DNA of 64,000 bases from Niebla homalea (lineage: Eukaryota > Ascomycota > Lecanoromycetes > Lecanorales > Ramalinaceae), in contig JAHGAU010000007.1 in NCBI GenBank assembly GCA_019925105.1, positions 1,798,001-1,862,000 of the forward strand, in the 5' to 3' direction. Below are positions 6,960 through 63,900 of the stretch, in pieces. How positions within the stretch are numbered: position 1 is the stretch's first letter; each line of letters starts with the position of its first letter. The notes beneath the pieces were generated by a model that ran no database searches, had not been told where the DNA came from, and was given only the letters and a program-made list of their open reading frames with translations. Position numbers and translations under genes: made by a program.

Positions 6960-7616
6960 GGAATAAGTGGGCTTGTTCTGTTGGAGAGCAAAGGTTGCAT
7001 ACTGTGTTCGAATGCACACAGGCGTTTAGCATTGTATTGAAGCGGCTATGAGTGATCCTTATTTTTATGAGATAGAAGAGATACAATAATGAGCCGTCCC
7101 ACTCTAATAGCCTTCATGTGTCAAAGTACAACGAATGATGCAGGTGTCCTGATGTGACACCTTGGTTGTCACAAAGGCATCTGGGTTGGTGCTTGAAATG
7201 TGTCACGAAATTGCCCCATTTTGACATAAATTCGAAGATCTGTCTCATTGTTTCCTTCATTCTTCTACATCTCCTCACGTCGGAATTTTGCTCAGTGCCA
7301 GACTCGTATCCACCTAGACGCATTGATCTTGCCAATGGTCAGAAGCCGCAACATGATTGAAGCAGCATGCTCTCGACCAATGGAAATGATGCGTTGCCCT
7401 GGTTGCCAAGCCCAAGCCCAAGTAAACTGAAGTGTTGTCCCTCAGCCCTACGGGACTAACGCGCTAATCGCCGAGCGCAGCGAAAAACATTACAAGCCAA
7501 GACTTGTCCCACCAACAACAGCTTCATTCACAAAACCTTTCGAATTCGACTTCACCCAGACAACACCTTATTCCGTGACACTTCGCTCAAGCATGTAGTT
7601 CCGCCACCAGCCGATC
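6960..7616. other. intergenic between MFS gene and the 2015-aa gene
   Basis: No gene seen; 3'UTR of the transporter and promoter of the next gene. Confidence 0.5.
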
Positions 7617-10600
7617 ATGAAGACTCGTCGCCAGCGCGAAATTCAGGAGGCTGAGGGTGTCCCGGTCACGCCACCCCAGTCACTGGAAGCCACAACACAT
7701 CGACCTCGCAGAGGCACCCGTCCTACTACCAGTCGTGCTCCGACTACAGAGCCTACCCAAACTCAATCTTACCCCACTGATCTCACTCAATCACAACCTA
7801 GCGACCATGCGAACATCCAACCAGAACTTACTCAATCTCAACCTCCATCACTCGAACCCGCAACACGTGCTCGAACACGAAGAGGCACAAGCCGCGCTCC
7901 AAGTAATGTGACGAGTCGTGCTACAAGTCATGCTTCAAGCCGGGCTACGAGTCGTGCTCCGACTGCAGAGCCTACCCAATCTCAATCTAACCCCATTTAT
8001 CTCACTCAAGCAGAACCTAGCCAACATGGAGACACCCAACCAGAACGTCTTCTTTCTCAACTTCCATCACTCGAACCCACAAAGCAGTCTCGAACTCGAC
8101 GAGGCACAAGCGGCGCTACGAGTAAAGTGACGACTCGCGCTGCAGGTCATGCTTCAAGCCGTGCTACCAGCCGTGCTACAAGCCGTGCTCCCACCGCTGA
8201 ACCGGTTCAACTTGGGTCTAGCAAAGCGGTCGCTATCCAGATTGACTCTACTACTGAATCAGAACCGAGTGAATTTGACTATGCCCACCCACAAGCTACT
8301 GAAGCTGAATACAATGAATCAGAGCCTACTCCCTCCGAACCTGATCAACCAGTCTTTATCAAGACTGAACCCGTTGAAAGTCATGCTTCAAGCCGCGCTA
8401 CAGGCCGTGCTCCCACCGCTGAACTGTTTCAAGTTGGGTCTAGCAGAGCGGACGCTATCCAAATCGACTCTGCCGATTCGGAATCGAGTGAATCTGACTA
8501 CACCCACTCAGAAGCTACTGAAGCTGAATTCAATGAATCAGAACCTCCTCCCTTCGAACCTGATCAACCAGTCTTGATCAAGGCTGAACCCGTCGATGAT
8601 GGACCTGTTCAATCACAATCCATCCAATCGGAAACTCCTCACTTCGAGCCTCCTCACTTCGAACCTCCTCAAGCCGAACCTCTCCAGGTCGCACCTCCTC
8701 AAGTGACACCTCCTCAAGTCGAACCTCCTCAAGTCACACCTCTTCAAGCTGGGTCTATTCATGGCCCACTTACTCCAAACCTAGAGGCCGCCAAGCGACA
8801 ATTTGAGAAAGATTACGCCAGGCGAGAAGCAGTGGCTGGGGCAGAGAAGAGCTTGCTATACGATCTCAAAACGAGAAATATGCGCGCAGATCAGAAAAGG
8901 GCAAGAGCTGGGAGACCAAAAGCGAACATCACAAAAGTTAGCGCCAGATACGAGGAGTACAAAAAGCGACAAGAGAAGGAACGAAAAGCCAAGAGCGTGG
9001 AAACATCTACACAAGAAGATACCACGCAGACGGACGATCCTGGTCCTTCGGAAGACGACGGAAGTACCGCACGAACCTCTCCCGAGAATGCCCCCGTTGA
9101 GGCTATTCGAGTCACAGGTCCGCGTGACACGAACAAGGAGGATGATGAGCTCGCCCAACGAGCCTCTCCAAGTAAGAAATCCCCTATTTCTTCTAGACCT
9201 TTCAAACCTCGCTCTCGATCTTCCTCCCAAGACGCCATCGAAGCTGCGAACGAAACATGGCGTGCGCGGCAGATCCAAGTCGATGAAGCCGCTCGAACTT
9301 TAGCTCGAGCTCGATTTGGCGTTCCAGCTAAAAAGGCCGCTGCACATCCCGTGCACGGCGGAAAGACCACTGCACATCCCGTGCCAGTTGCGTCCAAGGG
9401 GACCACTGCTGTGGACGGTGCGCCATCCCAGGCCCCACAGCATGTCACACAAGATGCGTTGCCCCCTCCCAAGCGGACCACTCTGGATGCATACATCGAC
9501 AAAGAAGTGGCTCGAGTGCGTAAAATTCCCCCAGGAGAAAGAACTGCGGTTGAGGCTCGCAACCTGGAATACTTGATCGGCCTGAAAGCTACACGACTTG
9601 GCCCAGAATGGCGTCCAACTGCTCCCACAGCCATCGTGGCTCAGCCATACGATGGCAAGGTGACAGCGGCACATGTCGATATCGTGGAACCAACCTCTCG
9701 TGAGAACTACGACGAGCAATTGAAACTTCGCATCCGACAGGAAGCCGAAGCACGCGCCGCTCTCGCTCAAACATCTCTCCCTCCGTCCCTCGAAGATCCA
9801 CCCTTGGCAGTTCAGAACTGGCCTCAAGTTAGTGGTGCAAATCGAGAGACCCTCATGAAATTCTGTGTCTCTGCTCGCTTGGCCCCTCAATGCGATCCTT
9901 CGTACCAGTTAGACAAGCACCCGCTCAGTCTAGCCGTTGATGATGACGTTTTCCTTGATATCATGCATGTCATTGTGAATCATCCCAAAAATCGTCATGG
10001 CGTTCTTTACAACTTGAAAAACATTCACCCAACAGTTGAGGCAAATGCAGAACGCATGATTGACTCTGGTCATCTAGATCTCTGGACGGGCAACTCCATA
10101 GCCGATAAGATCACTGTCACTGATTCACCACGATCGACACCTGTTACCTCTCAGCCAGATAGGCTTCGAAACCTTCGTACCTCCTCCCGAATCAGCAAGC
10201 CTCAAGGATCGAAGAGACGCCAAGCTCTCGCAGAGGTAGACGCACAATCGCACATTGAGGACGGACCATCTTCGCAGAACAAAGCAGCCCGCCGCATAGT
10301 CAGAATGCCAAAATACTTCACTGGACCAATGGACAAGCGTACCGTCCTCTCCGATAACCGTCAACAGGATGTACCATTGATCGAGTCCGATAACATGTCC
10401 TCCGATGACGAATCGATGCTGGATCTAAATGGAAATCATGGTGATGAGGATGATGTCCAGATGGAAGATCAATCAAATCAGCAAGATCAAGTGGACCAAC
10501 ACAACATGAGTGCAGGTGGCCCAACAACCCCAACAACACAGACATCAACCCCAGCTGCAGCTCAAACCCCCAAGTCTCGCGGGTGGGTGTTCGGATCTCT

Positions 10601-13600
10601 ACTGCCATCAGCAGCTCGCACTGTCAGCAAATTCCTCCCACGATGGCGTCAACAGCCACCATCTTTACCTCCAACACCTACACAGCAACCTGTTCCAGTC
10701 CCAGCTACGGAACCACGCCAGCGTCCACATGTGAGCGCAACGCAAGGTCGAGGTCGCGTGGAACGGAGGAAAGCCCTTACCCACTCAAGCATCGCACGTG
10801 AGCCCAATGGAGCTGTGAGACTTATGACCAAGGGTGCGATTGGGGTCATGAAGCAGAAAGCCGAAAACCGTAAGACGTTGGAGAATAGAGCCAAGCGCGC
10901 TGAAGAGGCCCTCGCTAGCAGGGACAGTATCATTCGGTCGCTGCACAAGCAAGTTCAAGACGTTCAGCAATCCTCCCGTGAAAACGCCCGCCAGCTGAGA
11001 GAAGCCGAATCCAACCAAGGGCAGCCTATTGATCTTACACGACCGACGCCTGTCGAAAAGCAAAAGCGAAAGCGCGCTCCCTCACCAGACGTCATTCCTA
11101 ATCCAGTACCTAACGGCTTCGGCATGGATCTCGAGTACTTTGGCTTTGATGATGACGATTCACAGTACTTTGACAATGAGGAAGAACATGAGTCACGTCC
11201 TTCAACATCCAAGCGCCTGCGCACATTGGAATCTTCAAGTACGGACAAGGCTGTAGTCCCTCTCAACGACACAGCTGCCGAGACAGGCAACCTTGACATA
11301 ATTCCTCGCCCAGGCTCTCCCGTCGGCTCTCCCGTCGGCAATCCATTTCGAGCAACCCCTTATACTGGCAGACTCTTCTCGAATGCATCAGTACCATCGC
11401 GTCAAGATCCACTAAGTAACTTGTTTAACGAGGAAGCTGCCTCCGACGAAGCCGCCGAGCAGCAGGTCACCACTTCGATCAAGTCGCCAACAACCCAGCC
11501 AAATACCTCCACTGTGTCCTCTGAGCAGCCGAGTGTCCAAGAGAAGTCGCAAGCCACTCAACCAAACACGTCCACTGTGTCCTCGCCCAAGGTCACGTTT
11601 CAAGATGATCCGCAGGTCACCAAAACGAATCCTTTTTTCACACCAAGAGTAACGTCTCAGAACAAGCCGCAAACAGGCCGGTCATTCTTTTTCAATGTGC
11701 CGTCGGTCCCGGTCACAACTCAAGATGATCCGCAAGTGACCACGCCTAACCCTTTCTTCAATATGGCCAACCCTTTCTTCAATACGCCCTCGTCAAGTGT
11801 CCCGACTCAAGACAAGCCACAAGTGAGCCAGCCGAACACATTCACAGTGCCATCTGAGCAGCCGCCAATGAGCCAGCCAAACACATTCACAGTGCCCTCT
11901 GAGCAGCAAGTGAGCCAGCCAAACACATTCACAGTGCCGTCTGAGCAGCCCGTACCTCAAGAGCAGCCGCAAGTGAGCCAGCCAAACTCATTCACAGTGC
12001 CATCTGAGCAGCCGCAAGTGAGCCAGCCAAACCCATTCACAGTGCCCTCTGAGCAGCCGCAAATGAGCCAGCCAAACACATTCACAGTGCCATCTGAGCA
12101 GCCCGTACTACAAGAGCAGCCGCAAGTGAGCCAGCCAGACATATTCACAGTGCCCTCTCAGCAGCCCGTACTTCAAGAGCAGCCGCAAGTGAGCCAGCCA
12201 AACACATTCACAGTGCCATCTGAGCAGCCGCAAGTGAGCCAGCCAAGCCCATTCACAGTGCCCTTTGAGCAGCCGCAAGTGAGCCAGCCAAACTCATTCA
12301 TAGTGCCCTCTGAGCAGCCGCAAGTGAGCCAGCCAAACTCATTCACAGTGCCCTCTGAGCAGCCCGTACTTCAAGAGCAGCCGCAAGTGATTAAGCCTAC
12401 CCCTTCCTTCACTATGCCCTCGCCAAGTGTCACGACTCAAGACAAGCCGCAAGTGAGAAAGCCAAACATATTCGCTATGCCCTCGCCAAATGTCACGACT
12501 CAAGACACTCCGCGAACTTTCCAGCCAAATAGCTTTACTGCTCCTTCTCCGAGCAGCGCAACGACTCAAGGCACCTCCCGAGTGATTGGACCAACCACTT
12601 TTACTGTACCCTCACCAAATGAAGGCGACAGCGACTTTTCCTTTGCCGAACCACCCACGTCGAGCTTTCCAAAGGCCTCGTTCAGAGCGTTACAAGCAAC
12701 CCCTACGCCAGCACAGAAGCAGCAAGCAGCAGAATCGCCCGGTTTCTCCTTTGCTGAACCACCCAAGGCGAGCACACCAAAAATCTCGACGCTGTCCACA
12801 CCGAAGGCCTCGTCATCGTTCAAAGCCGCCCCGGTGCTCCTTGCGCCAGCAGAGAAGCAGCCCGCACCACAAGCACCACTGCCGCCAACTCTTAGCGATA
12901 TCAGCCTCGCCCGACAACGTGAGCAAGCCTTGAAGTATGCCGCCAAGACCCCGTCGCGACTCCACGAAGCTACTCGCCCAAGCTCCACAAATGCTGAGTC
13001 TGAGAGTCCTAATGATCAGCCTCCCAAGTCTGTCCCTAGTCTCGCTCCCGCCCCAGTCACTGCACCTACTCCACCTCAAGCGACCGCGCCTCTCCCCTCG
13101 GTTCGCCACGCTTCTCACCCCGAACGCCGGAAAGAGGCTGTTGAGAAATTGAAGGAGATAGGTTTGACTGATTTCGAGGACTATATGAACTCAGACGACG
13201 TTTCCCAATTCATCAAGGACACGCACAACAAGACGTGGCAGGAGGACCCAGAATCAGTCAAGCAATCGAAAAAGCGCTGCTTGCTGGAGATTGACTACTA
13301 CCAGGTCTGGGAACAGCCTATGACAAACTCGATGAGCCACGTTTTCGAGGCTCCCACCCAGCAGCGTAAACGTCCCAAAACCCGCCGCAGCCCTCCTGAC
13401 AACGTTCCAGTGGTGGCAGAGACATCACGACCGGTGGAGAAACGGCAGACGAATGAGGACGTCTCGGCTGATTTGGACTTCTTTCAAGGTATGAGGCCTG
13501 CGCCAAAGCCTTGGAACCCGCCGCCGCCCGGAGCCACGACCTCGCGCGCCGCCCCGCCGCAAAACCCCAAGCCGCAATCGAAGTTCAATTTCATGGAAAC

Positions 13601-13664
13601 GTACAACGACTTGCTGGCCTACTATGCGGAGAGGGACAAGCCTAAGGCCCGCAAAGGGTCATGA
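7617..13664 (+). CDS. very large repeat-rich protein of unknown function (2015 aa)
   Basis: Single intronless ORF starting with ATG at 7617. Not assigned to a family. Order of features: an N-terminal Ser/Arg/Thr-Ala-rich section with near-duplicated blocks (RGTSRAP..., residues about 25-330); a charged section; a Pro/Gln-rich run; a segment near residue 985 reading GWVFGSLLPSAARTVSKFLP; a predicted coiled coil at about 1070-1140 (KQKAENRKTLENRAKRAEEA); NPFF motifs near 1340-1400; an array of about 15-residue repeats of the type SQPNTFTVPSEQP (about 1400-1585); and two conserved-looking C-terminal blocks, one around 1840-1900 (helical, Trp/Tyr containing) and one at the extreme C-terminus (FNFMETYNDLLAYYAER). 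The repeats are compatible with a scaffold, chromatin or nuclear-pore role. That is speculation; FG repeats are not evident. Confidence 0.85.
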   Translation: MKTRRQREIQEAEGVPVTPPQSLEATTHRPRRGTRPTTSRAPTTEPTQTQSYPTDLTQSQPSDHANIQPELTQSQPPSLEPATRARTRRGTSRAPSNVTSRATSHASSRATSRAPTAEPTQSQSNPIYLTQAEPSQHGDTQPERLLSQLPSLEPTKQSRTRRGTSGATSKVTTRAAGHASSRATSRATSRAPTAEPVQLGSSKAVAIQIDSTTESEPSEFDYAHPQATEAEYNESEPTPSEPDQPVFIKTEPVESHASSRATGRAPTAELFQVGSSRADAIQIDSADSESSESDYTHSEATEAEFNESEPPPFEPDQPVLIKAEPVDDGPVQSQSIQSETPHFEPPHFEPPQAEPLQVAPPQVTPPQVEPPQVTPLQAGSIHGPLTPNLEAAKRQFEKDYARREAVAGAEKSLLYDLKTRNMRADQKRARAGRPKANITKVSARYEEYKKRQEKERKAKSVETSTQEDTTQTDDPGPSEDDGSTARTSPENAPVEAIRVTGPRDTNKEDDELAQRASPSKKSPISSRPFKPRSRSSSQDAIEAANETWRARQIQVDEAARTLARARFGVPAKKAAAHPVHGGKTTAHPVPVASKGTTAVDGAPSQAPQHVTQDALPPPKRTTLDAYIDKEVARVRKIPPGERTAVEARNLEYLIGLKATRLGPEWRPTAPTAIVAQPYDGKVTAAHVDIVEPTSRENYDEQLKLRIRQEAEARAALAQTSLPPSLEDPPLAVQNWPQVSGANRETLMKFCVSARLAPQCDPSYQLDKHPLSLAVDDDVFLDIMHVIVNHPKNRHGVLYNLKNIHPTVEANAERMIDSGHLDLWTGNSIADKITVTDSPRSTPVTSQPDRLRNLRTSSRISKPQGSKRRQALAEVDAQSHIEDGPSSQNKAARRIVRMPKYFTGPMDKRTVLSDNRQQDVPLIESDNMSSDDESMLDLNGNHGDEDDVQMEDQSNQQDQVDQHNMSAGGPTTPTTQTSTPAAAQTPKSRGWVFGSLLPSAARTVSKFLPRWRQQPPSLPPTPTQQPVPVPATEPRQRPHVSATQGRGRVERRKALTHSSIAREPNGAVRLMTKGAIGVMKQKAENRKTLENRAKRAEEALASRDSIIRSLHKQVQDVQQSSRENARQLREAESNQGQPIDLTRPTPVEKQKRKRAPSPDVIPNPVPNGFGMDLEYFGFDDDDSQYFDNEEEHESRPSTSKRLRTLESSSTDKAVVPLNDTAAETGNLDIIPRPGSPVGSPVGNPFRATPYTGRLFSNASVPSRQDPLSNLFNEEAASDEAAEQQVTTSIKSPTTQPNTSTVSSEQPSVQEKSQATQPNTSTVSSPKVTFQDDPQVTKTNPFFTPRVTSQNKPQTGRSFFFNVPSVPVTTQDDPQVTTPNPFFNMANPFFNTPSSSVPTQDKPQVSQPNTFTVPSEQPPMSQPNTFTVPSEQQVSQPNTFTVPSEQPVPQEQPQVSQPNSFTVPSEQPQVSQPNPFTVPSEQPQMSQPNTFTVPSEQPVLQEQPQVSQPDIFTVPSQQPVLQEQPQVSQPNTFTVPSEQPQVSQPSPFTVPFEQPQVSQPNSFIVPSEQPQVSQPNSFTVPSEQPVLQEQPQVIKPTPSFTMPSPSVTTQDKPQVRKPNIFAMPSPNVTTQDTPRTFQPNSFTAPSPSSATTQGTSRVIGPTTFTVPSPNEGDSDFSFAEPPTSSFPKASFRALQATPTPAQKQQAAESPGFSFAEPPKASTPKISTLSTPKASSSFKAAPVLLAPAEKQPAPQAPLPPTLSDISLARQREQALKYAAKTPSRLHEATRPSSTNAESESPNDQPPKSVPSLAPAPVTAPTPPQATAPLPSVRHASHPERRKEAVEKLKEIGLTDFEDYMNSDDVSQFIKDTHNKTWQEDPESVKQSKKRCLLEIDYYQVWEQPMTNSMSHVFEAPTQQRKRPKTRRSPPDNVPVVAETSRPVEKRQTNEDVSADLDFFQGMRPAPKPWNPPPPGATTSRAAPPQNPKPQSKFNFMETYNDLLAYYAERDKPKARKGS
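11820..12370 (+). repeat. 45-nt-period coding minisatellite (SQPNTFTVPSEQP units)
   Basis: About ten imperfect copies of a roughly 45-nt unit encoding SQPN(T/S)FTVPSEQPQV, some extended by a PVLQEQPQV spacer, within the 2015-aa ORF. All differences keep the reading frame, so length variation between strains is likely. Confidence 0.9.
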
Positions 13665-50537: not shown

Positions 50538-52126
50538 TTAACTTGCGCTGGTTCTATCAAGCTCTAGCTCAAAACAGATGCGCCTACGCATAAACTTCAT
50601 ATCCTCCTGCCCAAAGGTATCGACAGGCCAGCCCATTATCAAGCAGCGGGCCTCACATAAAACGAAGACGCCGCAGTCTGAGGCATTGCCCTGTCTTTGC
50701 TGCTCTGGCTCATTGATGGTCAGGATCTGATCGCATCTGAAACCCCAGGCCCTCTTCAGATATCTTTCAATCTCTGCCCATTGGACACGGAATTTTTCCA
50801 GGTAGCCAGAGAGACCAGAAAACCAATCTAGACTCCACTCAGCTCCACCCCAGGAGAGGTGAGCAAGGCCCCAATGATTTCCATCGAGATGAATAGGAAA
50901 GAGGTGGTGATGCGTCTCCCCAAACTGTGCCTGGGGATAACCGCGAGGCGGCCATACTCCTGGCCATTCGGACCCCACTGAGGTCCTCAGGTACAGGTAT
51001 GAAGGCCATGCCTGCCATTCAGGAGCGCTTTTTGACGCAGGACCATTGTCTGGCTGCCCGTTTTTCAAAGAGCAAAAAAAGGCCAGATGAGGATCAATGA
51101 CTGTGTCACTAAGCCAATCACCTGATACCAACTCTGCAAAGTCCTTGAGCGTGGTCAAACCAGCATCTCTGGACCTGGCCTTTGTATCTTGAAATGCAAG
51201 GATGCGGCTTTCAGAGGCATCGAAAATCAATGTGCTCATGATTTCGTCCTTGGATTGCCCCAATTGCTCGGGCTGGACCGTGTCATGCGCATGACTCATG
51301 CCCTGTGGCTGCTTATGTGCTTCTTTGCCTTGCTTCTGCCCTTTGTCAGGACGTACTTGCTGCTTGGCCATGCCCGGTTTCTTGGGCTGAATTTGGGCTT
51401 TACGAGCCTTTTTGCTAGGCAACTCTGCCTCGTCATCATCAAGCTTACGTCCTTTGTCAGGATGTGCTTCCAGATGAGCGATGCCAGCTTCTAAGCGCTG
51501 CATCCTGGCTCTGAGAGTCCTGGGTTCTATACGTGTTTGCTCTGATAGGCCTTGTGCCCGCGCATATCTATTGTAGCGATCAAGGTTCTGGTAGAATTGA
51601 TCACATACCCTCATCTCATTCAAGCCCGTGGATTGTTCACGAGGCCAATTGGGATACTGAGAATCATTGGGGAACAGTCTGCCAAACATTGCGTGAGCAG
51701 CGTCGAGAGCGACCGTGAATGAACTTATCGTGCTGCCTGTTGCATGCATGTAGAGGTCATTCTTCTGTACCTCCTGGCAGGCAATCTGTACAGAGTAGAA
51801 GGCCCCGACGAGGTCTGGGTCTTCTGTCTGGTCTGGTGATCCCGCCTCTGTGTATGCCTTCACCATACGAACACTCAGATGCTTGAGGCCGAGCTTGATG
51901 TGAGGTGCCATGACCTTCAGTCGATCCAAGCGTCCACCATTGTCGCCTTCTCCGACCACAAAATTGTACCAATCATTCACAGCCCTAGATTCGGATCAGA
52001 TGGAGCACTGCGACAGACGTTCGGGGCGGTCATGACTTACAGCCATGTCTTGAGAACGCTTTCCTCCCGGCTGACCACCCTGTAGGGTTCTGGCAATGGG
52101 AGCTTGCTTATCAACGCTTTCGACAT
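50538..52126 (-). CDS. Ulp1-type (peptidase C48) cysteine protease-like protein
   Basis: Exons (minus) 52126-52041 and 51984-50538; 56-nt intron 51985-52040; 510 aa. The exon 1 start MSKALISKLPLPEPYRVVSR is inferred because the long exon 2 frame has only a GTG at its head. The N-terminal 250 residues are helical and unassigned; residues about 205-270 are a Lys/Gln-rich linker. The C-terminal 230 residues carry the C48 signature: SGDWLSDTVID, His399 in GNHWGLAHL, Asp415 in WSLDWFSG, Gln460 and Cys466 in QGNASDCGVFVL, so all four catalytic residues are present. Ulp1 enzymes remove SUMO or related modifiers; C48 domains also occur in many eukaryotic transposons. Divergent from the chromodomain gene with 406 nt between starts. 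Confidence 0.88.
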
Positions 52127-52364
52127 TGTGAGGCTTGACGTGTGATGATGAACAGGTATTATAGTGTGTAGAGCTTGATGACAAATAGGTAGTCTATGGC
52201 GCTTGATGATGAGGTTGCAATGTGCTTGAGGCTGAAGGTTGGATGAAGATCTTGGATTGTTGAGTCGACCATGGAAACAGATGGAAAGGTGATCATCCCG
52301 CATTCGGTACTAAAGACCAAATGTGGAAGGACAAATTCAATAGTTTCAACGCGTACCAAGGTGA

Positions 52365-52374
52365 TATATATTTA
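52365..52374 (+). promoter_or_regulatory. TATA-like element in the divergent Ulp1/chromodomain promoter
   Basis: TATATATTTA about 160 nt before the chromodomain-gene ATG (52533) and about 240 nt from the Ulp1-like ATG (52126), in a shared 406-nt region. Confidence 0.4.
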
Positions 52375-52532
52375 GCGTGATAGCAGAGAATTCCCCCCAA
52401 AATTCCTTCTCTCCATCTCCAAGATCTTCCACCCATCTCTCGACTATCTGAATATCAACGACTCACGTCAATTAAATACTGCAGAAGTATCATTTCATCT
52501 TCAGAGAGAGAGAGGCAGCCTTGTGAGAAAGT

Positions 52533-53981
52533 ATGCCTCAAAATTCCAAGCGTACGACGTCCACTGGCAAGCATCCTGAATGGAGGCAAGACCGCAATGC
52601 TCCTTACAAGAAGGCAGCTCGGAAAGCCACAGAGACGATCAAACACAAGGATTGGTATATCATCTTGAGCAGCATGAAGACGTGTGCTGAAGCACAGTTG
52701 AATGACGGCCAAGGATTGGAGACAATCTGGACGTCAGATGCCGTGACGCAGCACGCAGACAAGAGATGCTGCACAATGCGCTGTATGGGCGATCCAGCAA
52801 ATCTGCAGATTGCTATTGGGCTGTACTCTGGCCCGGGAAAGCCTTTCAATGAGCTGCTCTTCGAGGAAGAGATCAGAGAAGGCGGTTATGCCTCCATAGG
52901 CGTCATGGCCTATGAATTCACTCAGCGGCTACGAATCACCTGCCATAAGACAGACCCAGCGTCGAAAGACACCGTCTGGGAGGTGTCGTTCCTGATGGAA
53001 TCGGCAACCGAGGTGGGTCGGTGCAAGAAAGGTTTGAGGCGATTGATGAACATAGCCTCCAAAATGCCCGAACACTTGATCTTCTACAAGAACTTTGTCA
53101 ATCGACAAGTCGGAGAAGACGGCCCTTTTGACGCTGGAACGTGACAACGGCTTCACTGTCACATTTGGCGGGTTCCTGGGCACGCCAGAAGGCAGGCGGC
53201 TCATTGGTAAATCGCTTCCCAGCGATCCTCCCGCCATCATGACCAGGCCATGTGGAGCCTCGCAGAAAAAATCGAGTGCTTGGGAGCAGGCCAGTGAGCA
53301 AGCTGACAGTGAGCCGACCAGGCCGCTTACCAGAGCCCAGAAGAGGGCCGACGAGAAGGCCCGCAAGGTGGCAAGAAAACAGAACAAGAAGGACAGGAAC
53401 ACGATTCCTCGCCATCTGCAGGTGACGAAGAGGCTGACAAAGCCTCCGACTCTCATGCAAGCGATGGTGAGCTGGAACTGTTCCAAGATCAGGCGGCTGA
53501 GCAAGCTACCATGACCTCTCCATCTGCAGGTAACGAAGAGGCTGACAAAGCCTCCGACTCTCATGCAAGCGATGGTAAATCGGAACTGTTCGTAGATCAG
53601 GGGGCTGAATAAGCCATCATGATCGACGATGGGAGCTCCTCCCTTGGGCCCAGCTCAGCTGACGAAGCTGAGCAGTGGGACTCGGAAGAGGAGTTTGAAG
53701 TCGAGTCTCTGGGGGACCATCGAGTCCTCAATAATGTTACCGAGTACCTTGTCAATTGGTCCGATCAAGGAGGAAGATCGTGGGCGCCTACCTGGGAGCC
53801 TGCTAGTAAGAATGCACCTGAAGCTATCGGGGCATATTACAGAGCGAATCCCACTACCGCAGCTGCGCTGACAAGGCGTAACCTTGAAAAAAGGGGCAGC
53901 TGTCGTCGATCGGAACGCCTTCACACTGTCCCGAAGAGGGGCACCAAGGTCGTCCGACGCCGTGGCCGAGGTGGCTCCTAG
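52533..53981 (+). pseudogene. chromodomain protein with novel N-terminal domain; nonsense and frame breaks
   Basis: Begins at ATG 52533 with an unassigned about 190-residue globular domain (WYIILSSMKTCAEAQL, NLQIAIGLYSG, EVSFLMESATEVGRCKKGLR). The coding trace then shifts by one frame near 53095-53140 (TLERDNGFTVTFGGFLGTPE, followed by a basic helix ending VARKQNKK), shifts back near 53395, and enters an acidic Ser/Asp repeat made of a 108-nt duplication. In the second copy a CAA present in the first copy is TAA (53610-53612). Past that stop, in the same frame, is a chromodomain (EFEVESLGDHR, EYLVNWSDQGG, TWEP) and an Arg/Gly-rich basic tail ending at 53981. Chromodomains bind methylated histone tails. 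The pieces are collinear and look like one former gene; an alternative is two transcripts, the second starting at the ATG at 53619. Confidence 0.72.
53412..53627 (+). repeat. 108-nt in-frame tandem duplication
   Basis: Copies 53412-53519 and 53520-53627, 36 codons each, encoding SAGDEEADKASDSHASDG-type acidic sequence. Differences between copies are mostly C/T or G/A, including the CAA to TAA change. Confidence 0.9.
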
Positions 53982-56900
53982 GCTTGCAATGCCAGATCTG
54001 TTTCTTCTGTGGTTGATAGCCTGATTCAAATGAGACATCGGTTGCTTGCTTATGCTCCTTCCATGTGTATCTGCATTACCGTTCGTTCGACTGCGCTGTT
54101 TCATCCAAGTATTCTTCCCCGTGCTCTACTGCAAACGGTGGAGGGAGCTTCTGGAATGCCTTGCAATGCAGTCTGATTCATGCTGATACCCGTTCTGAGG
54201 AGCTCCGACTTCATTTGGCTACTAATGTTCAGCACTGCAGTCTGATCTGCCACGCCCATCACTTCCCACAGGCTAATCTATGTAAATACCGCTGGCAGCC
54301 TCTTTCTTCCCGCCTGAATATGATCGTTTCTCAAAAATAGCTCAGTGTCTATCATTGTGCTTGCTTATGGACTCATGGGAGCAAAAGCTACATGCAGACG
54401 ACTTTCGGATTGAAACCCCCCAGGGATTTCCATCTGCGCGCTCTGGATCTACCAAGCATCAAGAGGACATCCCAACCGTGGTGACGAGCGACTTCAGAGA
54501 AACAATCCATCGAAACAATGCATCGCCAGTACACCAAAGACGAGTAAGAAGCGTGCCAGGAAGATCGAGACTTGAAGCGAACCTTGCTGGCAATTGTTCG
54601 GCAACACCACACCTCCGTCGATCACATCCTGGCAGCCAATGGGTAAACCTTGACCAGCGAAGCATACTCCTAACGGCACATTTTCTGGGAAATTGGGAGA
54701 CTGGCAATGAGTAGAGTGGTACTTTGCTGGTTCAGTCGACCTGGGGGCTCTGCAAACTCATCCCAAGCTCTTCTCGTGACAAAACACCATATCAAATCTT
54801 CACCCACCTGCTCAAAAGGTTCGGAGTCCAGCCCGTCGTGCCGGACCCTTTGCTTGTAAGTCATGATTGATGGACGTGAAGAATCAGCGTGGGCTCTTCT
54901 CGCTCTACGGAGGCGGGACTACTGCCGCACCGAGAAACTGCACGGATGTGTCAAAGCCAGAGTCTACCAGAGGAACGTTTCCGATGCGCGATGCGCTGGG
55001 CGAGGATGATGAGCATTGACTGGCGATAGTATTTCTTGATATTCTTTGCCGTGACATGGATGGCAAATATACAATATATGCTCATACGGCAACCTCAACC
55101 CGGCTTTGACAGGTTCAGCCGTATAGTGTGTTACCAGTCGAGAATGAGTGCCTTGCAAAGCATTTACATGACAGCCCCTGCCGTCGAGCAATCATCCGCC
55201 GCATAAGATGACAGACGTCCGCATTTGTTCTGACAGACCAGCGGCATGCGAAGCTCCCTCGAACAAGGATACAGCAAGGTAGTAAGCCATCTGCCCGGGC
55301 GAAAGGAGGTCTTGATGCCCAAGTATTCGTGGACAGAAGAAATCTCGAAGTACCATCGGATGCTTAAAAGCAGCGGGGCGATGAACTAAGGAGGACTGCC
55401 AAGGGTGTGTCGATCGATGGTTGACCGGTGTCAAACATCAACTGGAGGCTCTACTGGTGCCGTACGGGGCTATCGCGGAGGTCCGAGTGACCCGAGTTTG
55501 CGATCTGAGTACAGTGACAGCGCCCCAAGATCCCAATGGTGGGCTGAGCTGCTGACATTCCGGGAGATTCAAAGCGGGAAAGACCCTGGCCGTCCCTCAA
55601 GCCAAGAGAGATGGAACTCAAGCTCAAAGAGACGGAAATAATATCCTGTGAGTAGAGGGTAGCCAGGCAAAGAGTGTTGAGTAGAGTGCAGGCCACGAAG
55701 AAGCCAAAATTTTCAGCCTTTCATGACCCGCCCTCTTCTCTATGAAAGTGTCGCGGACTATTGGGCCTCCGTACGACCATCGAGCGCAACGGAGGATCAT
55801 GCCAGTCATGTTGGTTGTCACTGTGCATTCGAGCTTCTCAAGCTCTCAAAGTAGATCGTCGCCTTGGTCTGTCCTCCGTGTCGCACGACGAGTCCTTTCC
55901 CCGCAAACAATAAATATTCAAGGAAAGAGGTTGGCGCGCAATTGAAAATCTACAAGGAAAGAGCGAGTTTATACTGAAGTGCCAGGCGGAAGTTTACTTG
56001 TCGGCGAGTGAAGCTGGTGGCAAGAGCGACAAGCCCGCAGACCTGCTAGTGGTCGGCCTTCCAGCCTTTTATTGCCCAAGCATCCACGGCTTTCATCCAC
56101 CAACTTGAGCGTCATACACTTCTCGACTCGATACCAAAAGTACAGCATGGAGAACTGTCCCCAAAAAGCTCGAAGCGCGTGGCTTCATTTCGCAGTCACC
56201 TCTTGTTGAGACGCAGTCGCACCGATCCGATCCAGAAGACGACCCAAGCCAGCCTGGCATGTCAAGATTTCTACATGACGCACCCTCCTGAGTGGCACTT
56301 GAAATGTCCGGCTTCACAAGATATGACAAGTACAGAGGGAACGAGTTGCTGGAGTGTAAAGGGTAAGGGAAAGCCGTCCGCCGTCCGCCCCGAAGTCAGG
56401 CAGGACGTAGGAGTAGGCACTCCAGAAGCATCCGAGACGCCAAGGGAGGTCTGTGAGATGACAAGTTCATCTGAGCGATGGACAACATTGAATTGCACAA
56501 GCGGCCTTAGGTCGGTCGGAGAGCCTGACCGGCGAATCTGAATGGCTCACCGACGGGCAGCGCAAAGCCTTCACGGTACTTGGTCCTAGGGCAGTGAGCC
56601 TGAAGAACAGCCTGCAAGAGCCCAAGAGTGGAATGACCACAATCCACCGAAGCAGGCTCAGCGATATACCGACTGCTTGTATGAGGCGCGCAAAGGCTCT
56701 CAGCCTGCTCAAGCGGCCGAGTCTTGTAGGCTCTACAAGAACTCAACTCCGGTGACAAAATTACAGCCTCGTTGGAAACAAATCTCTTTGAACCTGCAGC
56801 CTCTTGCGCAACTGCAAAGTATCGCTGCAAGGCACTTCATTGGGATCCTGCTGCAGTGCGCTCGAGCCTGATATGATTGGTTGCATTCACGGGCGTCTCG

Positions 56901-57414
56901 TCAGCTCATGCTGCACAATCTTTTTTGAGCGGTAGGGTTGGTATATTTCTTCAAATAGGAAGACTCTGCCCGGGGTGCTGCCTAGTGGAATAGCCAGCGA
57001 AGTCTTCGGACAGGTGCTTGTTGAGGTTCGAATCCTCACACCCCACAATCATGGTACAATTTTCCCCCTCTTTCACAGATTCAAAATCTTAGAGATTGGC
57101 CGCTACTGGTCTACGTGCTGACTTACTGGTCATACATCGGCGCGCATAATGACAGACGCAAGCTGTGGGTAGATGGAATGACCCGAAATGATTCCGCGGC
57201 GTCTCTCTCACAAGTGCCTGACGGGCAAAGGCCTAAAGGTGATTGGGAGACTGGGCAAGAACGACACCCTCCGAGGATGAAGGGATTGCATTTATTGCAT
57301 TTGTCGTAGTGCCCCATGGTTGTGCAGCCATTACGTTTCATTAATTCGCGGAAACAAGGTTGTCAAGCGAAACGGATTGCAAGTTGATGAACACAGAACT
57401 AACATTGATTGTAA
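53982..57414. other. long gene-free stretch inside the cluster
   Basis: No protein gene recognised on either strand over 3.4 kb, apart from a tRNA-like sequence at 56971-57046. Possible site of decayed cargo. Confidence 0.45.
56971..57046 (+). tRNA. tRNA-like or pseudo-tRNA sequence (anticodon not assignable)
   Basis: An A-box-like TGCCTAGTGG and a perfect B-box-like GAGGTTCGAATCCTC are 40 nt apart. The ends CGGGGTG and CACCCCA can pair at six of seven positions, and the T stem TGAGG/CCTCA is perfect. The D arm and anticodon arm do not fold normally; instead there is a GTC-TTCG-GAC hairpin. Most likely a decayed tRNA or tRNA-derived element. Confidence 0.3.
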
Positions 57415-57855
57415 ATGTTACTACTGCAAGAAGCTCCAGCCTTTTCAAGCTCGCCAGAGGTCATTCACGATATTCTTCTGAATCTTCAAGGACCTTTAGA
57501 CTTCGTCAGTCTCGGTCTTCATGACGATCTCGTGTTACTACTGCAAGAAGCTCCAGCCTTTTCAAGCTCGCCAGAGGTCATTCACGATATCCTTTTGAAT
57601 CTTCAAGGACCTTTAGACTTCGTCAGTCTCGGTCTTCATGACGATCTCGTGTTACTACTGCAAGAAGCTCCAGCCTTTTCAAGCTCGCCAGAGGTCATTC
57701 ACGATATCCTTTTGAATCTTCAAGGACCTTTAGACTTCGTCAGTCTCGGTCTTCATGACGATCTCGTGATCACCGACCAGCCCACTTCAAGCATTTTCTC
57801 ACAATTTCCTGGTCAGGCCTTTGAAGGCCATGTCCACTTTGAATTGTGTGCCTGA
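57415..57855 (+). CDS. possible small repeat protein (146 aa), doubtful
   Basis: ATG at the first base before the 117-bp triplication, then three almost identical 39-residue units (LLLQEAPAFSSSPEVIHDIL...) and a 27-residue tail that overlaps the 3' end of the AAA gene on the opposite strand. The unit length is a multiple of three, the frame stays open through all copies, and the composition looks helical, but no promoter or homologue is known to me. It may simply be a minisatellite in the AAA 3' region. Confidence 0.3.
   Translation: MLLLQEAPAFSSSPEVIHDILLNLQGPLDFVSLGLHDDLVLLLQEAPAFSSSPEVIHDILLNLQGPLDFVSLGLHDDLVLLLQEAPAFSSSPEVIHDILLNLQGPLDFVSLGLHDDLVITDQPTSSIFSQFPGQAFEGHVHFELCA
57417..57767 (+). 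repeat. three tandem copies of a 117-bp unit
   Basis: Copies at 57417-57533, 57534-57650 and 57651-57767. Copies 2 and 3 look identical; copy 1 differs at two positions (ATTCTTCTG versus ATCCTTTTG). The array ends just before the AAA stop codon, which is on the minus strand at 57770. Confidence 0.95.
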
Positions 57856-59455
57856 GCATCGCCAGCGTTATCGGCCCAGGTTCAAGTTGGTGCGAGACGC
57901 TCTCGTAACTGCGCCTTTCCCCGCCCTTTTCGGACGGAGAGGAGACCAGAAAGCACTCATTACCTCTGAACTTGATCTTGCGAAAGTGGGTCGCTTTGCG
58001 AGCTTGAGCGCCGAGGGCGGTGGCAGTATTCGAGACAATTCTTCGCACAATGCTACCACTGCAGTTCTCTGTGGATTCTGCAAGGCGTCTCAGATCTGCT
58101 TCCATCAAGACATGAACATAATTGTTCAATATGAGTCTGAACATCTCATATCGGGTCTTCATGTCAGGGAGGCCCATGTGAACGTGGTTGCTGAAGCGGC
58201 GCATGAACGCAGAGTCCATCAGCCATGGGAAATTTGTTGTACCAACCACAACGACGCCCGCATACACCGTCATCTTCTGTAGAAGCTCAGACGCGAATCT
58301 TTTGGCGCTTCCACTATCATCAGACTCCCTACTGCCACAGAGCGCCTCAATCTCGTCCAGAATGATGACTGCTGGGCGATTCTCATTGGCAACAGCAAAA
58401 AGTGCCTTGACTGTTCGCTCCGAACCTCCGACCCATTTGCTGAAGAGCTGGGAACATGAAGTTTGGTAGACTGTGCATTTGGGAAATCCACCCGCGACGG
58501 ATGTTGCCATGCTTGTCTTGCCTGTGCCTGGAGGACCATAGAGGAGTACGGCATTTGACGTCCCCGCCCGCGCTGTCAAGTGAGGCGTATTGATAACCTC
58601 GTTGATTGCATTGTCGAGAAGCGTCTTGGCTTCTGTGTAGCCTGCAATGCCGTCATTGCTCATTGCTTGACTGCCCTTGACAACTTTCAGGAGGTTGATC
58701 TCCTCCCTGTCGGCTTGAGAGATGGCCGGGTCCTCATGTCTTTGGTCAACGAACGTTGGTACGAGCCTGCTCCCGGGGTCTCGGGGTGATGTCACTTCAC
58801 GCAGGGTGTCTGCAAGAGAAGCGAAGAGTCCTTCAAAGTTCAGCGCATGACTACGAACATCTCCCAACACATTGGAGTTGACTCGGTTGGGCTTGACTTT
58901 CTGCTTGGCCTTCAACGTTCTCTCAACAATCTTTTCATCAGCCACGTCCCTCAGATCGGCCTCGATGTACAGGAGCATGACATAATCGAAGAGGATCATG
59001 GACACGAAGCGGTACATCCTTGGCTCCTTCGTCTTTTCAAGCTTGTTGAGGAGGTCGTGCATCGTAGAGACGCCTTCCAGAATCTGCCTGAAACCCGATG
59101 GCTTTTGCCCATGCCCCATCATCTCATCAGTCGACGGTCTGCGCACAGTCAACCATAGGTGACGCATCTCAAAGATTTCTGCACTGTTGCCGTCTGCCAC
59201 AAAGATCTTCATCAGGTCTCGCGCATACCTCAGCCGTGTGAGACCATTGATATGATCCAACAATTGCTCCGGCTTCAGCGTTGCAGGATCTGCGGTGAAG
59301 TGTAGAGGTGGTGGTAGCTCGAGGCCTTGGAATTGAGGCCGGTGAGCTGAACTTGCACCAGCTTCAGTCCTTTGAGAGACACGTCTGCCATCGCCTTTGT
59401 CTCCGTCGTCATGTTCATCGCCTGCTCGCTTGCCGCTTGCCATGGCTGAAGACAT
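57770..59455 (-). CDS. AAA ATPase, Vps4/fidgetin-like meiotic-clade type
   Basis: Single exon of 561 aa from the ATG at 59455 (a second ATG four codons on is also possible). The N-terminal about 260 residues are helical, begin with an acidic and basic patch (GKRAGDEHDDGDKGDGRR) and match no domain I know; no MIT domain is visible. The AAA module has Walker A GPPGTGKT (307-314), pore loop SKWVGGSE (339-346), Walker B IILDEIEAL (D367, E368), sensor-1 Asn in TTNFPWLMD (N408) and Arg fingers in FMRRFSNHV (R419, R420). All catalytic parts are intact, so it should remodel a protein complex as a hexamer. Its place between a SUMO-protease-like gene and a Spo11-like gene suggests a shared function. 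Confidence 0.88.
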   Translation of the reverse strand: MSSAMASGKRAGDEHDDGDKGDGRRVSQRTEAGASSAHRPQFQGLELPPPLHFTADPATLKPEQLLDHINGLTRLRYARDLMKIFVADGNSAEIFEMRHLWLTVRRPSTDEMMGHGQKPSGFRQILEGVSTMHDLLNKLEKTKEPRMYRFVSMILFDYVMLLYIEADLRDVADEKIVERTLKAKQKVKPNRVNSNVLGDVRSHALNFEGLFASLADTLREVTSPRDPGSRLVPTFVDQRHEDPAISQADREEINLLKVVKGSQAMSNDGIAGYTEAKTLLDNAINEVINTPHLTARAGTSNAVLLYGPPGTGKTSMATSVAGGFPKCTVYQTSCSQLFSKWVGGSERTVKALFAVANENRPAVIILDEIEALCGSRESDDSGSAKRFASELLQKMTVYAGVVVVGTTNFPWLMDSAFMRRFSNHVHMGLPDMKTRYEMFRLILNNYVHVLMEADLRRLAESTENCSGSIVRRIVSNTATALGAQARKATHFRKIKFRGNECFLVSSPSEKGGERRSYESVSHQLEPGPITLAMLRHTIQSGHGLQRPDQEIVRKCLKWAGR

Positions 59456-61324
59456 CTTGATGACTTTGAGTGGGCAGAGTAAGTAATGATGGTGTGATTG
59501 ATGATGTGATTAATGATGTGTCTTGGAAATGGAATGGCAATGGTAGAGAATGTTGTTTTGAGCAAACGACGCTAAGAGTAGTGCTAGATCATGTGACAGC
59601 TGGCTCGTTATCTTGAATCAGCGTTCCATTTCGTGAATTGCTGCGACCAGATTGGTGAGTCATTCACCACTCCATTTGAGTATCTCTCACCACGTCGGTT
59701 GGCAGAATGTCGGAATAACGCCACTCCACTTTGGCGTTGGGAAGCTCCACAAATGGATCGAACCCCAAAATTATGAGGACGTGATCAAGTCCGACCGCCT
59801 GGCAGATGAAAAGTACGACGAGATGGACGGTCGAAGGCCTCTATCAGCACAGGTTATATATTTACTTACTCCCCATAATGGCAGACACAGAAAGTGCATC
59901 CATCTCCGCACGATCTTGAGGTCCACAGTGACAAGCCAGATAGGAACACGAGCGAGTGATCTAGTTCAGCCATTTCAATCAAGAATCCCGAGGAGCGCGA
60001 GCCTTCAGAGCATGGATACCTCTGTCAGTGATAACGACACAGGGACGATAGATGTATGTCTACAATGAATCACGGTGCACAGGTGCATGCCAGACGGTTG
60101 CGAACAATAACGGCAAGGGTGTACGAGCGGATGATCACAAAAAAGCGTCACCCGTTCATAACACAGATTCTGAGATGTTGGTGAGAACGATGTCCATGAC
60201 GTTTGTGCTGTGTGGGTGACTTGCCCACTGGGAGGGCCGCCAAACAGGCCATGCTCCAGACCACCCGACATCTATCGTGTTCGTCCGGCAATGAATGCTA
60301 GCTTTTCCCAGGCAATTGACGAGCATTGCGCGTGCATTGCGCATGCAATAATTTCGCTCTTCCCCGTCAACTCCTCGTCGGCTGTCAGGACCATTGGAGC
60401 CTCAGCCCTTTCAATGTTATAGCGAGCCGAAGAGGAATTCAAACTATGCTGGAAGCCAATGCCTAACCAAGCTCACGAATCGTCACCCCAAATCATACCC
60501 CAGCTCTGTTCTGTCGATGGAGCGAGCTGTGTCCGCGCTTCCAGCTTATTTTGGGCCATCTCTCAATGTCCTCTGTCCTGCCTTTCGTCTCAGCAGATAG
60601 TCCCACAACTATTATCAGATACAGGCACCATGGCTGTGAGATTGTGAATGCTGTGGGAATAGCAGGCCGGCACACCAAGTCATGAGCTTCAGATTATGCT
60701 CTCTGTTCCTACCTCACGCTCAATGCGGAGACAAAGTGACACAAACACTGGGATTCGCTGAGTGAAGTGACATAATAGTCTTGGAATGTGCTTCTTCATG
60801 AAGATGTACGGGTCGTTGAGCACATGGAAGATAATGGATATAAAGAGTATGAATTGCTGACCATTGGAAATACAATTCGACGTAGATGACACGCGTTCGC
60901 GAGCATGAGATGCATGGCCAGTGGCAAGAGAAAGTGCCAAGAACTGCACGGCCGTATGCATAGGTTTTGTCATTTACTTTTTAATCAGTGTACACCACTA
61001 GGTATAGTTGCAACTCAACTTACCGGAGGGTTTCTATGCACTTCGTTGGTAAACATATGTGCACGGAGATGGCGACATTGATACTGAGGGGATGAGATAT
61101 TCTGTCATGTCTTCTGCACGTACATGAGGATAGATTTTGAGGTGAGTAGACCCTAAGCAGAATAAATGGCCCTCAAGTTGACTAGTATTGTCTATGACAC
61201 GGAAAGGAACGCATCGAGCTCCAATTGGGTCAGGAGAGCGTGATGCGGGCACACGGACACAGTCTCCACAAAATGGCAATAATCTAAAGGAAAGCAATGG
61301 GAGGACAACAAATCATCTTCAAGT
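59456..61324. other. intergenic between AAA and Spo11-like genes
   Basis: No gene seen; the right end contains the AAA promoter side only as a CATCA-rich leader near 59460-59520. Confidence 0.45.
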
Positions 61325-62928
61325 CTAAAACCATTGTACAGCTTTCAATGCCTCAAGTGCCTCCTTAGACATGGACGTTTGAGCCTCTGAAGCAGCCACC
61401 TTGGATGCAGATTGCTGACCTGCCAGAGCAGATGCCGAAGCGCCTAGCCTCTCCAGCAAAGAGCTTGTTGCCTGGCTTTGGCTTTGGCTTTGGCTGCCAG
61501 AAGCAGCAAGCCACTGCTGCCTGATGGGCGTCAGTTTGGGGCCAGGTAGCTCCTACGACGTCTGCCTTTGGCTCTCCGTGCAGAAATCGGCTACTCTGGT
61601 CTGTATGTAGACTCTTAAGTAGTCCGAGTCGACCTGAGTCATATCTGCCAAGCGAAACTTGCTTGGCCGTTCAACCATCTCTTGAAGCTCTGCAGCCATT
61701 TCTGGCTCGGCTCGGAGCCAACCAGACTTCTGAAGCCCCGCCATAATGCTTCTATCAGTTTTGGTTGCTCCTTTGAACTTCTTTTCGACAGTCTTGGCCT
61801 TGTCGGCCTTCCACTTTGTCATGTGCGCTTCAACGTCCTTGGCGGACGTGCTCGGATGACTCTCCTTGTAATGCTCCCTTTGAGTCTTCAGACACTTGTC
61901 AGGGGTGTCAATCAGGTCCCGCCTTGTAGGACCAGCCCATTGCAGTCTTGGACAGACCATGGTTCGGCTCGACTCAGCCTGCTGTGCAGAACCGGTCATG
62001 AGGACCTTGTAGATCTCCACCCCTTGGAAGTCATGGTCGCCGAAGTAGAGGAAAGGGACCGTGGCCAGCTTTCGGTCTTTGGCCAGCATGTGGAGGAACT
62101 CCCTCGTCGCAGCACCTGGGTAGCCTGCGGTCATGACGAGGATGTATTGCTGCATGTCTCCACCAAAGAACACAGCCTTCTTGAGGTTGCGGTGTTCCAC
62201 CACAACGACTGCAGTCGGAAGGTGTCCGTCAAACTTCAGGCTCTTGATCAAAGGCTCAATAGGGTGTACCTCTTTGTGCTTGAGCCGGATCTTCTTCTCA
62301 AAGCTTGCGTCTGGATTGTCTCCGCGATGGTAGCCTAGGATGTCGGTGACCTGGACGCAACTTATGTTCATCCTTGCCGGCAGGGAGATCTCACCATTTG
62401 ACTGAGGAATTACCCCCAGCGTCCACTCATGCACCCCAATTGTGAGTGCGAGCTCGTGCAGCGCGTTCCGAGCCTGAGCAGGCGACATTTCTGCCGCTTG
62501 CTGGTACTGGAGGAACCGCTGCATCGTGGGGCTGTCCTTTGCAAGGTTATGGGAGAGACGTTCATACACTGCGAACAGCCGTTGCCAGCTTGCAGGTATG
62601 ATTGAAACGACTCTTCGTGTCACCTTGGCATCCAGTCGCAGCATTATGAAGGTTTGGCCCTCTTGCACGAGCTCGCACTTCTGGCGGCCGCTTGATGGTC
62701 GGACTGTAGAAACGTTCTCGAGTCAGCATTCAGGAAAGATTCATTGCCTGGATTGCTCGGATGGAAGTGGTGTTTGAGTCCCAAGACAGATCGAGCCTCC
62801 GGTTAACACATACCTCTCACGGACTGGTTGTTGGCCAAGTCATGCCAAATCTGATCGAGGCGCTCGAGACGCTTTCCTCTGCTCATACACACGCGCCAGT
62901 CCAAATCCAAATGCGGTGAGGCAGCCAT
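61325..62928 (-). CDS. Spo11/topoisomerase VI-A-like protein with TOPRIM domain; in-frame TAG before the last 75 codons
   Basis: Exons (minus) 62928-62814 and 62703-61553; 110-nt intron 62704-62813 restoring MAASPHLDLDW...NNQSVRVRPSS; 421 aa to the TAG at 61553-61555. N-terminal winged-helix-like part: LFAVYERLSHNLAKDSPTMQ and RFLQYQQAAEMSPAQARNAL with Tyr105, then HEWTLGVIPQSNGEI like the yeast KG(L)vxG region. TOPRIM: Glu208 in TAVVVVEHRN, YILVMTAGYPGAATREFL, Asp261/Asp263 in FLYFGDHDFQGVEIYKVLMTGS, then CPRLQWAGPTRRDL. Yeast Spo11 uses Y135, E233 and D288; spacings here (103 and 53) agree with 98 and 55. After the TAG the same frame stays open for 75 codons (ELPGPKLTPIRQQWLAASGS... to 61325), so the stop probably replaced a CAG codon. 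Spo11 makes DNA double-strand breaks covalently; this divergent copy is unlikely to be the cell's meiotic Spo11. Confidence 0.85.
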
Positions 62929-63155
62929 TGCAATAATGTTTGGATGGATGCTTGTATCGTTGTGATGAGAGATAATGTTGGGATGACTTGGTTGATGACT
63001 CGTGAGATGACTTGAGATGTTGTTGTTGTGAGAAACAAAGGAAGCCAAATGAAGGTAGAAGACTTGGCGAAAGGCTAGTCCGGAGATATCATCACATCAT
63101 CACTCACCGATGATGATGTGAATGTGGGGCACTCACACTTACCAGGCTCGGTGCA
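62929..63155. promoter_or_regulatory. 227-bp divergent promoter between Spo11-like and coiled-coil genes
   Basis: Starts at 62928 (minus) and 63156 (plus) leave only 227 bp for both promoters. The Spo11 leader is CATCA/ACAACA-rich, like the AAA leader. Confidence 0.5.
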
Positions 63156-63900
63156 ATGGACCAGGGGCCCGCCAACATCCGGCCAGCCAATGGTCATGAA
63201 TCCTTCAGTTTCTACACAAAGTTCCCAAGCACCCTTGGGCCTCCCCTCGCTGGCCCTGGCTCATTCAAGCCTCGTGGACCGCGCCAAGGTGCCTCCGGCT
63301 CGCAAGTGAGCAAAGGGAGCAAGGCGGCTGACAGAGCCGCCAGTTCCCAGGCCGACAAGGCCCAGAGTGGGGAGAACAGGAAGAGAGGGGCGGCAGACGA
63401 TGCCGATCAAAAGAACGCCTCGAAAAAGGGGCAAAAGAAGTCTAGGCAAGTCCGCCATCGCAAGCGGGCGCAGATCGGTCAAGAGGCAGAAGACGTCGCT
63501 ATCCGCCAACGGCTCATCGAGCTCGAGAAGCGGCACGCTGTGACCGAGAAGCTCCAAGTTGAGCTTGAGGACTTGGCCAAGTTGGGGGCAAACCCGGCGC
63601 GACTGATGGAGGTGATTGGCCTCTTTCAAGAGTCTCGCGAGCAGCGGGATAAGATCGAGAAGGAGGAGCAAGTGAAGCTCCTAAGAAGCTGCCCAAGGGC
63701 AGAAGCGCCTCACAGAGCAACTCCTCCAAGTGCAAGCCAGGCAGAGGGCAACCCGTGCTCGTATGGACGAGGCTCCCCGTCGCACTGTCGAGGGCGTCCC
63801 TCTGCCGACTCGGCCGGCTCAAAACCAGCAAGACAAAGATCTTGAAGAGGCGGCCGCACAGGCCCCACCAGAGGAGGAGGACGATCAAATGAAAGGCTGA
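63156..63900 (+). CDS. coiled-coil basic protein, with apparent frameshift
   Basis: ATG at 63156. About 60 residues of Pro/Ser/Gly-rich sequence, a Lys/Arg-rich nuclear-localisation-like stretch (KKGQKKSRQVRHRKRAQ), then a long coiled coil (AIRQRLIELEKRHAVTEKL... SREQRDKIEKEEQVK). The open frame continues to 63845 as low-complexity sequence, but after about 63685 the natural coiled-coil continuation (AQGQKRLTEQLLQVQARQRA) and an acidic end (PPEEEDDQMKG, stop at 63900) lie in the next frame. An apparent 1-nt shift in AGAAGCTGCCC explains this. Intact length would be about 248 aa. Possible structural or DNA-binding partner of the divergent Spo11-like gene; no family recognised. Confidence 0.65.

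Follow-up and report, generated by a model that had tools for sequence, protein, structure and literature searches.

In the meiotic break machinery of Spo11, the proteins Rec102, Rec104, Ski8 and Pch2 act as helpers. TopoVI-A-like proteins named Mini-A and Topo VIII are tied to mobile elements of prokaryotes. Starships, Polintons and KDZ transposons are mobile elements of several genes, and C48 proteases or chromodomains are found in some of them. Fungi, like mammals, are usually credited with a single Spo11 (PMC4071758), and an article on where TopoVI and Spo11 occur (PMC11302465) has no 'fung-' word in the portion of its text that was searched. Here we describe a block of genes around a second Spo11/TopoVI-A-like protein in the lichen fungus Niebla homalea. 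The block lies within a 64-kb stretch of DNA (the window) of contig C7 (1,912,729 bp; JAHGAU010000007.1) in a genome of 50.6 Mb and 52 contigs. No description of such a block was found in open-literature searches.

Four linked genes around a Spo11-like protein

Four linked genes, encoding a Spo11/TopoVI-A-like protein, an AAA ATPase, an Ulp1-type protease and a chromodomain protein, are widely kept in other genomes. In order to assess linkage we took 38 Spo11-like, 4 AAA, 7 Ulp1-type and 4 chromodomain proteins and examined cross-family homologue pairs for contigs of identical size in bp. Identical sizes were found for 15 of the 642 cross-family pairs versus none of the 703 pairs within the Spo11-like family. 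A contig of 24,397 bp carries all four genes, and its small size implies that they are adjacent there. The Spo11-like, AAA and chromodomain genes share a contig of 1,286,125 bp; the AAA, Ulp1-type and chromodomain genes share one of 47,245 bp; the AAA and chromodomain genes share one of 1,424,912 bp (Ramalina farinacea); and contigs of 20,027 and 16,312 bp each carry the Spo11-like and Ulp1-type genes. No partner gene was found for the remaining homologues; incomplete contigs and the limited sensitivity of the search may be the reason. The original prediction had reported a cluster of five genes, which is a real feature of the window, and had raised the idea that the five co-occur as a block; this holds for four genes, given the matching pairs and the 24.4-kb contig, and the fifth, a coiled-coil open reading frame (ORF), is a possible member.

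From left to right the block consists of the Ulp1-type (-), chromodomain (+), AAA (-) and Spo11-like (-) genes and the coiled-coil ORF (+). Gene ends were placed by tblastn with orthologues and by reading of the DNA.

50538..51986, minus strand: main exon of the Ulp1/C48-type cysteine protease (ORF 50538-51995; PF02902, E 9.6e-8)
52043..52126, minus strand: first exon of the Ulp1-type gene (tblastn of homologue P0051, 50% over residues 1-28)
52533..53981, plus strand: chromodomain protein gene, interrupted (uninterrupted orthologues P0046-P0049; tblastn; chromodomain model)
57770..59455, minus strand: AAA ATPase with one AAA domain, uninterrupted (PF00004, E 7.2e-31)
59500: third copy of GATGATGTGA, 5' of the AAA gene
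61328..61552, minus strand: conserved tail at the C-terminal end of the Spo11-like protein, cut off by an in-frame TAG in this genome (tblastn of homologues P0001 and P0004)
61553..62704, minus strand: main exon of the Spo11/TopoVI-A-like gene (Pfam, profile, fold match, kept residues)
62806..62928, ends approximate, minus strand: first exon of the Spo11-like gene, the LDWR...ERLDQIWHDL segment (tblastn of homologue P0005, 42%)
63092..63121: two copies of GATGATGTGA, one per strand (sites 63092 and 63112), between the Spo11-like and coiled-coil genes
63156..63845, plus strand: ORF of the coiled-coil type with coding-like codon use, in divergent orientation to the Spo11-like gene

The Spo11-like protein and the canonical Spo11

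TopoVI-A is the best match of the Spo11-like protein by both fold and sequence. Its toprim domain is of the TopoVI-A/Spo11 type (PF21180, 69 bits against a cut-off of 24.1), and the toprim E and DxD are present in all 29 aligned rows of the family. Fold and motif also indicate a CAP-like domain with a candidate catalytic tyrosine in R-x-x-x-Y. The candidate residues are Tyr73 for catalysis and Glu176, Asp229 and Asp231 in the toprim domain (numbering of ORF 61553-62722). The enzyme is divergent and apparently catalytically complete, and the fold and the conserved residues lend support to the DNA-breaking activity that had been proposed for it, as a predicted cleavage.

We searched the genome for the TP6A_N domain and obtained one match only, at C35:443986, in a gene whose exons carry RNIFY and a Spo11 toprim domain; the latter matches yeast SPO11 (E 2.9e-5). 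At E<=1, the profile of the new Spo11-like family matches TopoVI-A only, plus one chance match. Judged by sequence, the Spo11-like gene of the block is distinct from the host's own Spo11 on C35.

Partner proteins and shared 5' motif

The Ulp1-type gene has two exons, runs from 52126 to 50538 on the minus strand without interruption, and shows identities of 61-64% and 41-43% to its orthologues. His374, Asp390, Gln435 and Cys441, which we take to be the catalytic set of an Ulp1/C48 protease, are invariant in all eight aligned rows. Profile comparison with PDB places the AAA domain closest to Afg2, Cdc48 and Vps4 chains, and the residues that we take for the Walker A and Walker B motifs, together with Arg residues, are kept in 5/5 aligned rows. 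Ahead of this domain lies a family-specific N-terminal region of about 280-290 residues, for which only four homologues were found. Four orthologues were also found for the chromodomain protein, which has a conserved N-terminal part of about 200 amino acids belonging to no known family. A chromodomain fold is predicted within 53613-53981, with no above-cut-off Pfam match elsewhere in the protein. The AlphaFold2 model is poor outside the chromodomain (mean predicted local distance difference test score 40.9), and structure matches of this model were used only for residues 341-407. The searches made gave no homologue of the coiled-coil ORF, whose reading seems, by eye, to shift frame near 63680 (63660-63700) and which may be interrupted.

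The three GATGATGTGA sites in the window all fall in 5' regions of the block, as do 5 of the 18 window sites of TGATGATG; no long motif site lies within the Ulp1/chromodomain 5' region. The motif was selected post hoc, after inspection, and is a lead only. The number of shared 8-mers was matched by 1 of 200 random triplets, that of 7-mers by 3/200, and those of 9-mers and 10-mers by none of the 200. It is possible that the GATGATGTGA sites reflect co-regulation of the block genes.

Distribution, copies and trees

Organism names are available for 17 of the 38 Spo11-like homologues and include Bacidia, Ramalina, several Teloschistaceae and Physcia; more distant homologues are found in Cirrosporium, Sarea and Lithohypha. 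In a tree of the 38 homologues and the window copy, built with a quick method, the window copy belongs to a five-member clade (support 100) beside a second clade, of four members (99), that includes R. farinacea. The latter species has two loci, with AAA and chromodomain genes of the window type on one contig and a Spo11-like gene of the second clade on another. The two Spo11-like genes of Pyrenodesmia sp. 2 belong to different clades. The AAA and chromodomain trees have five rows each. In the chromodomain tree the 24,397-bp contig pairs with the 1,286,125-bp contig (98/96) and the 47,245-bp contig with R. farinacea (98/97), whereas the AAA tree pairs the 24,397-bp contig with R. farinacea (93/91). 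When the chromodomain pairs were imposed on the AAA tree, one was rejected (p 0.020) and the other was borderline (p 0.051). This conflict is a hint that blocks may have exchanged genes.

In the genome of N. homalea, none of 31 other AAA rows extends into residues 1-249 of the block AAA protein, and one Ulp1-type match (27%) is present elsewhere, on C2. A 3.8-kb intergenic stretch of the block has no other DNA match in the genome, and 6.1 kb of the right flank has one, of 141 bp and 71%.

Genomic setting and decay

The base composition of the block is like that of its surroundings and is not of the kind left by repeat-induced point mutation (RIP). Immediately downstream of the AAA gene, at 57416-57768, there are three tandem copies of 117 nt, 98% identical, with an open reading on the plus strand of 3 x 39 residues; the 3.4-kb stretch between them and the chromodomain gene contains nothing recognisable. 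A gap of 1.9 kb separates the AAA and Spo11-like genes. Elsewhere in the window, an uninterrupted ORF of 2021 residues with PQVSQPNTFTVPSEQ-type repeats occupies 7599-13664 on the plus strand. At the contig end, from C7:1880001 (18 kb beyond the right edge of the window), an AT-rich tract (12-38% GC per 2-kb bin, high RIP index) continues as far as the sequence was examined. There is no TTAGGG run in the last 2,729 or the first 5,000 bases of C7.

Parts of the block have decayed in this genome, while the AAA and Ulp1-type genes are uninterrupted. Two frame changes and a TAA at 53610-53612 break the chromodomain gene where its orthologues read on, and in the Spo11-like gene a TAG (near 61553) cuts off some 75 residues of a tail present in orthologues. 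Either stop may have arisen by a C-to-T change of the RIP type, although the composition of the block is not RIP-like. The broken frames may instead be assembly errors, but each of the two stops is a substitution in what is a sense codon in orthologues, and no interruption affects the long ORFs in other parts of the window.

Possible function and origin

We give about an even chance to the interpretation that lecanoromycete fungi carry the block as an accessory module, centred on this divergent Spo11/TopoVI-A enzyme and separate from the host's own Spo11. The Spo11-like protein would act as a dimer, cutting DNA via Tyr73 and remaining linked to the ends, and the chromodomain protein would bring this nuclease to particular chromatin. 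Loading, remodelling or release of the complex could fall to the Vps4-like AAA ATPase and the Ulp1-type protease, partly through SUMO removal. The breaks would then be mended by recombination, and our guess is that the block might profit from their repair through homing-like copying. We lean towards an accessory or selfish role over a core meiotic function because the block is patchy, occupies two loci in one species and is decaying.

Several observations weigh against an accessory module of this kind. Linkage was judged from equal contig size, and the megabase contigs show a shared chromosome only. TP6A_N (PF04406) has no match to the Spo11-like copy in the window, so its tyrosine domain is assigned from fold and motif only; homologue P0012 has Phe in place of the candidate catalytic Tyr, and P0025 and other homologues have alignment gaps at this column. 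No TopoVI-B transducer domain was found in the genome, which leaves the Spo11-like protein without a known partner. The chromodomain is below the Pfam cut-off in the window copy, P0047 and P0048, and of the positions that we take, by eye and from HP1, to form the methyl-lysine cage, F/W and W are kept and the third is non-aromatic. The block is single copy at the protein level in this genome, and the 25 longest of 66 pairs examined include no long terminal or inverted repeat at its edges. We infer the steps of targeting, SUMO removal and homing.

The block could also be a host cluster, in which a lineage-specific Spo11 duplicate and its helpers are inherited vertically for a meiotic, chromatin or DNA-maintenance task, with local loss here. 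We consider this a real, if lesser, possibility. The single copy and the matching base composition agree with it, as do the long conservation of catalytic residues in lichen fungi and also in Cirrosporium, Sarea and Lithohypha, and the lack of any transposable element hallmark in searches of the genome and the block edges. It fits poorly with the two loci in R. farinacea, the two copies in Pyrenodesmia sp. 2, the partial decay, and the conflict between the AAA and chromodomain trees among four contigs.

The same four features favour the mobile or selfish nature suggested by the original prediction, against which speak the single copy, the lack of long terminal repeats among the pairs examined, and the lack of a transposase besides. 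That the block is a selfish or mobile element with its own chromatin-targeted double-strand-break complex of nuclease, chromatin reader, AAA remodeller and SUMO protease, spreading via repair from the carrying copy, seems to us somewhat unlikely. Still more doubtful is a transposon with the Spo11-like protein as its transposase and with an Ulp1-type protease and a chromodomain like those of other fungal elements. The fixed association of several genes, the two loci per species and the subterminal AT-rich tract would suit such a transposon, but the copy is single, the 3.8-kb intergenic stretch has no other DNA match and the right flank a single short one, and the edge pairs examined include no long inverted repeat. 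Genome defence of the Wadjet kind, in which a toprim nuclease and an ATPase would together eliminate foreign or circular DNA, is very improbable; JetD matches are weak, and no Jet partner was found among four proteins (PADLOC) and ten (Pfam).

A second family of structurally complete Spo11/TopoVI-A-like proteins in lichen fungi, linked to an ATPase, a SUMO-type protease and a chromatin reader, would provide a new setting in which to study the targeting of breaks to chromatin. If selfish, the block would be a type of element that runs on a Spo11-like enzyme; the literature searches made gave no eukaryotic precedent for such a type. It opens a direct question, namely whether a Spo11-like protein acting outside meiosis cuts DNA and benefits from doing so.

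Comparison with known systems

Among mobile elements, the captain type of Starships, DUF3435, has at least 34 matches in the genome, none of them on C7; many of these matches on other contigs contain numerous stop codons. The Polinton/Maverick marker DNA_pol_B_2 (PF03175) has four matches, on C49 and C36 only, one of them at C49:30913-32307 on a small contig that is perhaps mitochondrial or a linear plasmid. KDZ transposase gave no match in the genome, and neither did its control. The claim that the block is not a standard fungal element is upheld with respect to Starships and Polintons, while the KDZ search lacked a working control. We rejected a viral origin: alignments of the Spo11-like, Ulp1-type and AAA proteins yielded no confirmed relative in viral contigs, none was confirmed in phages, and 0/132 BFVD fold matches were at E<=0.001. 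A prokaryotic source was also rejected, within the reach of a scan of GTDB genome contigs with narrow patterns, which gave 66 matches, none confirmed. Mini-A and Topo VIII are prokaryotic, whereas the block is fungal and has no confirmed relative in any of these sets.

Wadjet JetD shares a toprim domain with the Spo11-like protein, with a fold match far weaker than that of TopoVI-A. DNA topoisomerase VI subunit A is the best fold and sequence match, but no GHKL-type ATPase is present among the block ORFs scanned, and the TopoVI-B transducer (PF09239) has no match in the genome at E<=1, although the control was matched in four archaea. With the Spo11 core complex and the meiotic break machinery, the block shares the CAP and toprim fold, R-x-x-x-Y, E and DxD, as well as a nuclease with helpers that may read chromatin, remodel and de-SUMOylate. 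These helpers are unlike Rec102, Rec104, Ski8 and Pch2, to which family scans gave no match, and, unlike in the Spo11 core complex, the nuclease and its helpers are linked together in one block.
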